From positions 1 to 34,609 of IMG/VR virus record IMGVR_UViG_3300020470_000091: a stretch of 34,609 nt of DNA. One strand, written 5' to 3'. Each line of letters begins with the position of its first letter. Position 1 is the stretch's first letter. Source of the stretch: a virus. The translations under genes and the position numbers were made by a program. This document shows, piece by piece, positions 30,708 through 34,001 of this stretch. The notes below the pieces were generated by a model. The model was not told the DNA's origin, did no database searches, and saw nothing but the letters and a program-made list of their open reading frames with translations.

Positions 30708-30974
30708 TTATAATTCCTCAGTCATATAATCCATAGGAGTTGCAGTTCTAAGTTCGACCTTATTACCTTCAAATGTTTTGAATGCAATGTATTTTGGCCC
30801 AAGATTATAAATCTTTCTGACTTCCCATGATCTAGTGAGAGTGTCTATAATTTCACCCTCTTGGTTATATTTATTATAACTTACAGTTAGTTGTTTATGA
30901 CATTCAAACCAACTAACTATCCATAACCATACAGATTTAAACCAGTCTGCAATTTTAGTTATCCACTTTCGCAC
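30708..30974 (-). CDS. Small conserved protein (88 aa), GTG start
   Basis: GTG at 30974 is preferred because GGAG lies 5 nt upstream and it overlaps the previous gene by only 20 nt; the ATG at 31079 would overlap by 125 nt. The protein reads VRKWITKIADWFKSVWLWIV, SWFECHKQLTVSYNKYNQEG, then KYIAFKTFEGNKVELRTATP and ends MDYMTEEL. The C-terminal part matches a small family in marine T4-like phages that ends in similar fashion. An amphipathic Trp-rich N-terminus may contact membrane. Function unknown. Confidence 0.68.
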   Translation of the reverse strand: MRKWITKIADWFKSVWLWIVSWFECHKQLTVSYNKYNQEGEIIDTLTRSWEVRKIYNLGPKYIAFKTFEGNKVELRTATPMDYMTEEL

Positions 30975-32541
30975 TTGCTCTCCACTGATAACATGACCAA
31001 TATCTTGCCTTCCATTTAGGGCCTGGGTCTGCACAATTATGTCTTGCTCTGAATGACTTTCTTTTTTCTGGGTTATCACGATTTATACCCATCTTAGGGT
31101 CTCCAAATCGAACTACCACAACCTTACCCTTCTCATTCTTCACATATACTTTAAACTTCTTGTTAGGGTTCTCAGAAGTCCTTATAGGGTCGTTTAGTGT
31201 AACTTTCTTACCTTGATACTCTGCTTCTGTAAGTTGATGGTCATAATATCCTAAACATTCTGCACAACATTCTTCTTGTGCTCTTTTGATTTGGTCTGGA
31301 GTAGGAGCTCCTTTCTCACCTTTCTTTCTCATCTTTTCACCAGAACCAGCTTTAATTCTTGCCCTTTTCTTTCTAATATTATCCCAGAGTCCTTCTTTTA
31401 AATCGTCATCTTCATCATGACCACCTTTTATAAAAGAATTAACTCTTGCCATTGCCCACTGTTGTGGAGAAGTTACATTAGGTCTTACACTACTAGGATT
31501 TGTTTTATAAGCACCCATACCTCTATCATATACTTTTTTCAAAACTGCATATGAATATTTTGTTTCTTTTGCTTTGTTTTCCAGACCTTTAATCTTCTCT
31601 TCGTCTAGTTCTTCACCCATTTTCATGAACAACTTACCTTTTTGTTGTTTCTTATTTGATACTTTAGCACCAACTAAAGATGCAACTTGATTAACAAATC
31701 TAAGTCCTCTTTCTTGGTTAGACTGGTATTCTTTACCCATTTTTTTCTTTACTGACTTAACAATTGCATCAAAAATTGAATTGATATCTGCAACCAACTT
31801 ACCTTCATCGATACCTTCTCTAAGTCTAGGTTCTCTTCTATTGGTACTTCTATTTGCAACTCTTAGGTTACCCATTTCATTGTTCTCTGGGTTGTTGTCT
31901 TTATGATGTACATCTTTACCATCGAAAGGTTTTACTCTACCTGCTTTTTCCAGTGCCCTTCTAGCTCTTTTTCTTGCAGCGTTTCTTTTCATTTGTTCTG
32001 GTTTACCCAGATAGTTTTCCCTTTCTTTCTTGTAATCTCTTTTATACTTTTCTTCTATTTCATCACCAGATACTAATTGTGCAACTTGAGTAATCATTTG
32101 GGTAATTGCAGCTGGTGGTAATGTTAGAATAATTTCTATTTGTTTATTGGTAATTCCTTTAATCTTTTGAAGTTGTTTTTTTAACTTTACCTTATTAAGT
32201 GCCTCTTCAAGTACCTCTTGCATAGGTGTACCTTGTTTGAACCTTCTAAGTAATGCATCTGTACCTATCTCATTATTACCAGCACCTAATGACCAATTAT
32301 TATCTCTTCCACCCTTTAAATACTTTTTTTCTTTCTTCTTTTTCTTCTTACTTTTCCAGTGGACTTTATCATCACCAGTACCAGCAACTGGAGCACCTGT
32401 TGCATTTGCTGGTGCATCTTCTTCTAACCATTCTCTAAACCACCCATTATCTTTTCTATCGTAATCTTTAGGCGTAGAATGTGTTGATGCACGATTGTAC
32501 ACATTCATAAATTTTGCTACTGGGTTAGTTTTACCTTTCAT
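30955..32541 (-). CDS. Large mosaic protein with HNH motif and DUF5824/DUF5872-like domains
   Basis: 528 residues. Residues 63-76 are a Lys-rich tract. Residues 175-240 hold an HNH-type motif (GKDVHHKDNNPENN, then GNLRVANRSTN; H212, H213, N217-N221). Residues 328-375 (YSYAVLKKVYDRGMGAYKTN, SPQQWAMARVNSFIKGGH) resemble DUF5824, and residues 442-527 (KVTLNDPIRTSENPNKKFKV, VVVRFGDPKMGINRDNPEKR, RARYWSCYQW-like end with CADPGPKWKARYWSC) resemble DUF5872. These modules occur in different combinations in marine T4-like phage proteins. The 'FMKMGEELDEEKI' area looks like a linker. Role unknown: virion-packaged nuclease or scaffolding-associated protein are options. Confidence 0.7.
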   Translation of the reverse strand: MKGKTNPVAKFMNVYNRASTHSTPKDYDRKDNGWFREWLEEDAPANATGAPVAGTGDDKVHWKSKKKKKKEKKYLKGGRDNNWSLGAGNNEIGTDALLRRFKQGTPMQEVLEEALNKVKLKKQLQKIKGITNKQIEIILTLPPAAITQMITQVAQLVSGDEIEEKYKRDYKKERENYLGKPEQMKRNAARKRARRALEKAGRVKPFDGKDVHHKDNNPENNEMGNLRVANRSTNRREPRLREGIDEGKLVADINSIFDAIVKSVKKKMGKEYQSNQERGLRFVNQVASLVGAKVSNKKQQKGKLFMKMGEELDEEKIKGLENKAKETKYSYAVLKKVYDRGMGAYKTNPSSVRPNVTSPQQWAMARVNSFIKGGHDEDDDLKEGLWDNIRKKRARIKAGSGEKMRKKGEKGAPTPDQIKRAQEECCAECLGYYDHQLTEAEYQGKKVTLNDPIRTSENPNKKFKVYVKNEKGKVVVVRFGDPKMGINRDNPEKRKSFRARHNCADPGPKWKARYWSCYQWRASAKVDN

Positions 32542-33554: not shown

Positions 33555-34001
33555 TTACTGGATGTTTGCTACAACTTTAAACATGTTGTTAGGTTGTTTT
33601 TCCCACTCAACATGTAGTTTCAGTTCTGGGCCGTCTTTAGAAATGAAGTCGTCATCGAGGTCTGCACCATCGATATCCTTTCCAAATCTTCCACCAAACT
33701 GACTTAAAGGTAGGTCAGCAGAACCTTGATCTTCTGAACCTTCGTCAAGGATAGTATCAAATTCTATACCGACTTGTTCAACTTTACGACCTAGTTGTTC
33801 TAAAGCTGCACCGACAGAGATAAATTCTCTGTCTGCAACACCACCAATAAATGCATTTAATCTTTGCAATACTTCAGCATCTTCTGAAAATCTGTGTAGG
33901 TCATCTGTTGCAACTCTACCAGTTGAATCAGAAGGTAATCCATACCCACCATTTGGGCCAGATTCATATGCTTCTGCAATGTATTTCTTAAATGATTTCA
34001 T
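33555..34001 (-). CDS. Conserved marine T4-like hypothetical protein (148 aa)
   Basis: MKSFKKYIAEAYESGPNGGY, then PSDSTGRVATDDLHRFSEDA, VLQRLNAFIGGVADREFISV, GAALEQLGRKVEQVGIEFDT. Acidic Gly/Asp-rich C-terminus with ELKLHVEWEKQPNNMFKVVA. Many prohead-packaged or structural T4-like proteins begin MKSFKKYI-AEA. That start could be a protease-trimmed propeptide, by analogy with T4 prohead proteins, but no cleavage site is proven. It follows the outer structural protein by 12 nt. Confidence 0.72.
   Translation of the reverse strand: MKSFKKYIAEAYESGPNGGYGLPSDSTGRVATDDLHRFSEDAEVLQRLNAFIGGVADREFISVGAALEQLGRKVEQVGIEFDTILDEGSEDQGSADLPLSQFGGRFGKDIDGADLDDDFISKDGPELKLHVEWEKQPNNMFKVVANIQ

Follow-up and report, generated by a model that had tools for sequence, protein, structure and literature searches.

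Cut-site-like motifs at the module joints of an HNH-bearing phage mosaic protein suggest a packaged polyprotein

Results

The mosaic gene and its neighbourhood

The sequence analysed here, called the window, is a 34,609-base record of a marine T4-like phage in which one long ORF, the mosaic gene (Table 1), begins with ATG and contains no internal stops. An earlier note made from the same sequence had described its product as a large protein with a lysine tract, an HNH-like segment, and two further domains that recur singly elsewhere. The ORF and its tract were borne out, and the HNH-like segment matched Pfam HNH_3 (PF13392) at residues 199-236 (E = 6.4e-7; 29.4 bits against a cut-off of 24.8). 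The further modules do recur singly in other phages, but not within the 34.6-kb record, where the mosaic protein has a single match, itself.

A DUF5824 domain (PF19141, residues 295-371, E = 8.1e-9) likewise exceeds its Pfam cut-off. Among PHROGs profiles, phrog_4590 surrounds the HNH match (residues 165-237), phrog_28338 matches residues 317-381, phrog_16028 residues 382-421 (E = 2.1e-16), and phrog_7595 the C-terminal residues 436-520 (E = 1.3e-14). The DUF7230-like N-terminal extension is common to the window protein and two relatives, L002 and L111; the ten HNH-less relatives described below showed none. Throughout, a slash marks a predicted cut. The first such site, LEE/D, falls inside the targeting-like segment with residue 41 at P1; the limits of segments B and D were set at predicted sites (LEE/A and IEE/K for segment B), and the HNH module is flanked by IEE/K and LRE/G.

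Table 1. Features of the mosaic gene and one neighbouring gene in the window
Feature	Positions	Strand	Residues	Basis or remark
Neighbour gene, product begins MKSFKKYIAE/A	33555..34001	-		T4-type capsid-targeting sequence
Mosaic gene	30955..32541	-	528 aa	ORF translation; whole-protein pI 9.9
DUF7230-like N-terminal extension	32452..32532	-	4-30	Pfam, below cut-off
Targeting-like segment with capsid-like tag DAPANATGAPVAGTGDD	32368..32442	-	34-58	
Lys tract KSKKKKKKEKK	32323..32355	-	63-73	
Segment B	32050..32202	-	114-164	Alignable with HNH-less relatives
HNH module	31816..32049	-	165-242	Pfam HNH_3, phrog_4590
Segment D	31600..31803	-	247-314	Alignable with HNH-less relatives
DUF5824 module, LDE/ in front	31393..31599	-	315-383	Pfam PF19141
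Module F (phrog_16028), LKE/ in front	31225..31392	-	384-439	PHROGs
Module G (phrog_7595), LTE/ in front	30958..31224	-	440-528	PHROGs

The neighbours of the mosaic gene in the window encode a protein with a T4-type capsid-targeting N-terminus (Table 1), DUF7207, two uncharacterised proteins, the Rz and Rz1 spanins, and a primase, with the large subunit of ribonucleotide reductase beyond them. The earlier note had placed the gene among structural genes, which, given these neighbours, is only loosely right. Homologues of the targeting-sequence gene lie near the mosaic gene in relatives. A small gene follows the mosaic gene (30708-31079); its GTG start as called would overlap the mosaic gene by 125 bases, and the true start is probably later, because alignment to L002 begins at residue 36.

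Relatives at the same locus

Scanning viral contigs gave at least 231 confirmed loci, the best 80 of which were used. Ten near relatives lack the HNH and DUF5824 modules (L003, L006, L007, L008, L009, L010, L011, L013, L018, and L059; 348-424 aa, with L007 and L059 almost identical). All ten retain the tag, segments B and D, and modules F and G, and a different segment stands where the HNH would be. In L002 (298 aa) the HNH is retained, and the protein stops past segment D, just short of the GEELDE joint of the window protein. L002, L111, and nine of the ten HNH-less relatives share the gene order phrog_11617, targeting-sequence protein, DUF7207, phrog_18642, mosaic gene, Rz, Rz1, primase, nrdA; the tenth piece, L009, begins within the targeting-sequence protein and has the remaining genes in the same order. 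An extra ORF of 363-369 aa directly precedes the mosaic gene in six of the ten (L003, L006, L007, L013, L018, and L059) and is missing from this position in both the window and L008, and the small gene after the mosaic gene is matched in five (L003, L007, L009, L011, and L059). The upstream half of the locus is shared, at lower identity, with L126 and L158. Because ten relatives hold the gene without HNH in the same neighbourhood, modules are exchanged in place, and modules without nuclease motifs are exchanged the same way.

Judged by the reductase gene, the closest isolate is Mosig EXVC030M (71% DNA identity); seven genes inspected upstream of its primase included no such mosaic. L015, L029, and other loci encode mosaic proteins of up to 1227 aa, in which cytidyltransferase or other domains are joined to several recurring small modules; the longest run off their contig pieces. 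Salinibacter phages account for 183 of the 280 phage records matching the mosaic protein, and among the matches listed the region covered is residues 310-449 (258-449 in one), comprising DUF5824 and module F.

Head-protease-type motifs at module joints

The T4 head protease gp21 is described as cutting after L/I-x-E (PMC9026906). Eight such triplets occur in the window protein, with P1 at residues 41, 113, 164, 242, 246, 314, 383, and 439; shuffles of the protein contain 3.7 on average, and 44 of 2000 reach eight. None of the eight lies in a trimmed HMM core (P = 0.03 given the Glu positions). Five are no more than a few residues from an edge of an HMM-defined module (164 and 242 flank the HNH; the others are 314, 383, and 439), and the remaining three bound segments drawn at the sites themselves, so that "edge" is circular for segments B and D. 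Predicted pieces would have masses of 4.9-10.4 kDa and pI values of 9.2-10.6, except for GIDE, whose four residues would make a useless piece and so count against reading the protein as a polyprotein. A model of residues 296-528 was poor (mean pLDDT 60); that its low-scoring stretches (296-311, 374-384, 416-434, and 522-528) coincide with or come close to the predicted cuts (314, 383, and 439) is only suggestive.

To look at joints across the family, we took contexts less than 50% alike and compared the stretch immediately upstream of module starts with composition-keeping shuffles. Sites preceded 10 of 24 HNH starts (shuffle mean 3.0), all eight DUF5824 starts (1.9), 8 of 10 starts of module G (2.8), 6 of 10 of module F (0.8), 1 of 2 of KRA (0.3), 2 of 6 of PCW (0.2), and 0 of 6 of TQP (0.2); the poor PCW and TQP results count against cleavable joints. 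With Glu as the anchor, Leu or Ile stood at -2 in 41 of 136 cases at joints versus 8 of 201 in module interiors (7 module types, 66 contexts; P = 2e-11, a value that overstates the evidence because the anchors, windows, and tests were set post hoc, once the pattern had been seen, and contexts within a module are related). The next-largest Leu/Ile differences were at +1 (15/136 versus 10/201) and +2 (28/136 versus 27/201, P = 0.06).

Broad tests at alignment edges, which are less specific than those at module starts, gave z scores of 7.5 and 8.1 for [LI]xE, 4.5 and 6.2 for [KR]xE, and 4.9 and 2.4 for [LI]E, and conditioning them on Glu left a weak signal (odds ratio 1.49 at -2 and 1.60 at -4); the rise of the other Glu motifs and this weakness count against cleavable joints. 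In the HNH-less relatives the first site reads FE/D or LE/D rather than L/I-x-E, which counts against cleavage there. A gp21 gene (PF03420) was present in the contigs of 5 of 12 relatives, G001 and G002 included, some of these contigs being fragments, as the window itself is.

Targeting-type N-termini in the family

In the published account of T4 internal proteins, the first ten residues of IPIII target the head, positions 4 and 7 serving targeting and positions 8 and 10 processing, and an Asp at position 10 blocks processing (PMC9026906). We modelled a strict targeting pattern on IPIII. It matched 50 of 1157 distinct N-termini, versus 1.7 expected from shuffles, and was found in 19 of 114 module-flagged ORFs versus 31 of 1043 others, some of the latter being DUF5824 ORFs missed by the module flag. 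The 95 module-bearing ORFs without the pattern count against packaging. Stand-alone DUF5824 ORFs often begin with a targeting sequence (for example in L038, L060, and L103), as does a stand-alone G ORF in L103; the evidence for module G is weaker, because the strict sequence is present in just 1 of 27 short G-module ORFs. In L056, an ORF that starts with module F and runs off the contig has a targeting-type start, and the HNH polyprotein of L126 carries a strict sequence at its very N-terminus (MKRFSHYLEE/D). The window protein is not among the strict matches: a 31-aa DUF7230-like extension precedes its GWFREWLEE (residues 33-41).

In T4 itself the pattern matched 5 of 258 ORFs (0.54 expected), IPII and IPIII among them; IPI and Alt were missed, and one match was the defective I-TevIII. 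Four Autographiviridae pieces gave 1 match in 44. In S-SM1 the sole match among 226 ORFs (0.32 expected) was the cytidyltransferase T4-GC190, which is among the proteins reported as detected in S-SM1 virions (Sullivan et al. 2010, PMC3037559). T4-GC190 combines a capsid-targeting N-terminus with presence in the virion. The L029 product is 43% identical to it over 268 aa and, like the window protein, carries HNH, DUF5824, and G modules, in its case behind the cytidyltransferase domain; unlike the window protein, T4-GC190 itself has no HNH motif that we could see.

A capsid-like tag

In five capsid proteins of relatives, L/I-x-E (four) or M-x-E (one) stands before the conserved shell domain, and T4 gp23 has FLTE/A at the corresponding place; by analogy, we infer that the relatives' motifs are cut sites. 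The window segment LEEDAPANATGAPVAGTGDD, at the first predicted cut site, and the segment LSEDAPINNAGGAVGGTGVD of the G001 capsid protein are identical at 12 of 20 positions, and none of 5000 shuffles did as well. Taken capsid by capsid, the number of equally good shuffles per 1000 was 0 for L188 (G001), 0 for L184, 20 for L185, 56 for L187 (G002), 240 for S-SM1, 429 for L186, and 690 for T4. The likeness is thus strong for two of the seven capsid proteins; G002, which of the relatives with a capsid gene is the nearest, shows only a weak one, and this counts against a tag. When the ORFs of G001 and G002 were compared with the capsid cut region of their own genome, none stood out; the mosaic ORF of G001 was compared separately, and its tag was equalled by none of 1000 shuffles.

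Two other proteins showed similar matches. T4 gp61.1 (54 aa; NC_000866 18966-19130, L195) starts MKTFKEFIKE and aligns with the T4 gp23 cut region over 35 residues with a score of 81 (next best of 265 ORFs, 31; 0 of 1000 shuffles as good), making it a candidate for an unrecognised internal head protein. A 182-aa S-SM1 protein annotated "major head protein" (T4-GC 426; NC_015282 152805-153353, L190:27806-28354) best matches the post-cut segment of S-SM1 gp23 (score 54, 0 of 1000 shuffles as good) and is perhaps another tag-bearing protein rather than a capsid protein.

Conservation and predicted fold of the HNH module

A second scan gave 270 confirmed loci, the best 80 of which were used. Across the loci of both scans, at least 43 HNH modules differing in sequence and flanks were obtained, the window's included, all within ORFs of at least 196 aa, and the module recurs in many contexts. 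We aligned the window module with 29 of the other 42. The earlier note had made conservation of the HNH residues in homologues a point to be settled, and H213, N220, N221, N225, N234, and R235 proved invariant in all 30 sequences, with H212 replaced by Gly in two. Between the window and L002 the module has a dN of 0.042 and a dS of 0.69, so that, judged by substitution rates, it is under purifying selection.

Among PDB profiles, I-HmuI alone matched at E ≤ 1 (E = 0.017), and its His and Asn residues line up with those of the module; the residue before the catalytic His, which is His here apart from the two Gly cases, is Asp in I-HmuI. An AlphaFold2 model of the module had a mean pLDDT of 74.8, with blocks 21-80 at 81-90 and predicted elements E60-64, E77-81, and H82-86. 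Foldseek returned no significant match (best E 1.2, with DotN in the top rows), and VIA-align gave Z ≥ 2 for 3 of 57 chains (Z 2.0-3.2), all three of them HNH nucleases. For the beta-beta-alpha-metal fold raised in the earlier note, the picture is therefore mixed: the strand-strand-helix elements and the identity of the three matches agree with it, but the scores are low.

Discussion

Modules, motifs at their joints, targeting-type N-termini in the family, gp21 genes in relatives, and an HNH module that is conserved and under purifying selection are established at the level of sequence. We consider it somewhat better than an even bet, with a probability of roughly 0.57, that the mosaic protein is a packaged polyprotein cut by the head protease. 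A chain of small basic modules would be taken into the prohead alongside the internal core proteins, and a gp21-type protease would cut between modules after L/I-x-E, freeing a 78-residue HNH protein (9.4 kDa, pI 10.6) among other pieces. These would stay associated with the DNA in the head and exit together with it at infection. The HNH piece would then introduce nicks or breaks into DNA, with that of the host or of a competitor as the most likely target.

The steps differ in strength. Between the alternatives offered by the earlier note, a virion-packaged nuclease and a captured homing domain, the former is favoured because of the gp21-type joint sites, the family's targeting-type N-termini, the capsid-like tag, and the detection of a related protein in virions. 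Packaging is likely, and cleavage at the joints, given packaging, would be equally so. Nuclease activity of the HNH is probable. Least certain of all is what the released HNH does, and the idea that it attacks DNA of the host or a competitor once ejected is a tentative proposal. Two points count against the polyprotein: we found no proteomics for any HNH-bearing member, and a free nuclease inside a DNA-filled head would need control.

Two known systems invite comparison. In T4, IPI-III and Alt are described as internal head proteins that are packaged and cut by gp21 (PMC9026906). The mosaic family resembles them in its targeting-type N-termini, L/I-x-E sites, small basic pieces, and the gp21 of relatives; it differs in that the window protein comprises several modules in one chain, an HNH included, with sites at many joints, and carries a 31-aa N-terminal extension ahead of its targeting-like segment. 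Because the strict N-terminal targeting sequence is missing, we do not assign the window protein to the T4 internal-protein class. Polyvalent proteins, which are phage proteins of several domains, are believed to be packaged and then injected, and the authors who described them drew a polyprotein analogy (Iyer et al. 2017, PMC5512222). None of their hallmark domains (ArdC-N, MPTase, ParB-like, and others, some of which may lack a Pfam model) is among the six Pfam families matched at E ≤ 1, and, whereas embedded peptidase domains are described for polyvalent proteins (PMC5512222), release here would be by the head protease.

Among other explanations, the one that survives best, though we judge it unlikely, is that the HNH piece is packaged or head-associated and serves head assembly or DNA packaging rather than acting as an injected weapon. 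HNH proteins encoded beside terminases are thought to act in packaging. In a phage collection, the module was found at E ≤ 0.01 in 12 of 50,697 records, and in three of the four T7-like records inspected, all Autographiviridae, a related stand-alone HNH gene of 72-74 aa immediately follows the scaffold gene and is separated by a few small genes from the capsid gene downstream (in the fourth, its neighbours are unannotated); this arrangement favours a role in the head. However, the HNH seems dispensable at the mosaic locus, because ten relatives have the gene in the same neighbourhood without it. Even so, a second mosaic gene of G001, one of the ten, carries an HNH, and the remaining nine are known from contig pieces and may have an HNH elsewhere.

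Less likely still is an ordinary cytoplasmic multidomain protein in which the L/I-x-E joints are only acidic linkers. The linkers are indeed Glu-rich, and other Glu motifs are also enriched at edges, but the Leu/Ile peak at -2 persists with Glu held fixed, and neither the capsid-like tag, the family's targeting-type N-termini, nor the detection of a relative in virions would be expected of such a protein. A captured homing endonuclease domain spreading its own module is very improbable: HNH_3 includes I-HmuI-like enzymes and I-HmuI is the one structural profile match, but, unlike I-HmuI, the HNH here is embedded in a 528-aa ORF rather than free-standing, no homing DNA-binding domain is among the Pfam hits at E ≤ 1, HNH-less relatives hold a different segment and no intact empty site, modules without nuclease motifs are swapped likewise, and the module occurs in many contexts.

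The new point is the presence of cut-site-like motifs at module joints. In the titles and abstract openings of the matches listed from the open-licence literature, we found no account of cleavable module polyproteins or of such an HNH in marine T4-like phages, and that literature yielded no paper on DUF5824. If the packaged polyprotein is real, many "hypothetical" marine phage genes could be read as one class of packaged cargo whose cut points can be predicted, and the occurrence of the same small domains both alone and fused would be explained. The T4 internal-protein system would extend from single proteins to polyproteins that carry an enzyme, and what marine phages inject besides DNA would become testable through virion peptides that start after L/I-x-E. 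More broadly, and with the balance just short of even, marine T4-like phages may possess a general system of exchangeable cargo, in which basic effector modules, HNH included, are strung into polyproteins with head-protease joints, carried into the head by targeting sequences or by tags copied from the cut site of the capsid protein, and separated once inside; in such a system, a single in-frame recombination event at a joint would suffice to add a new effector.
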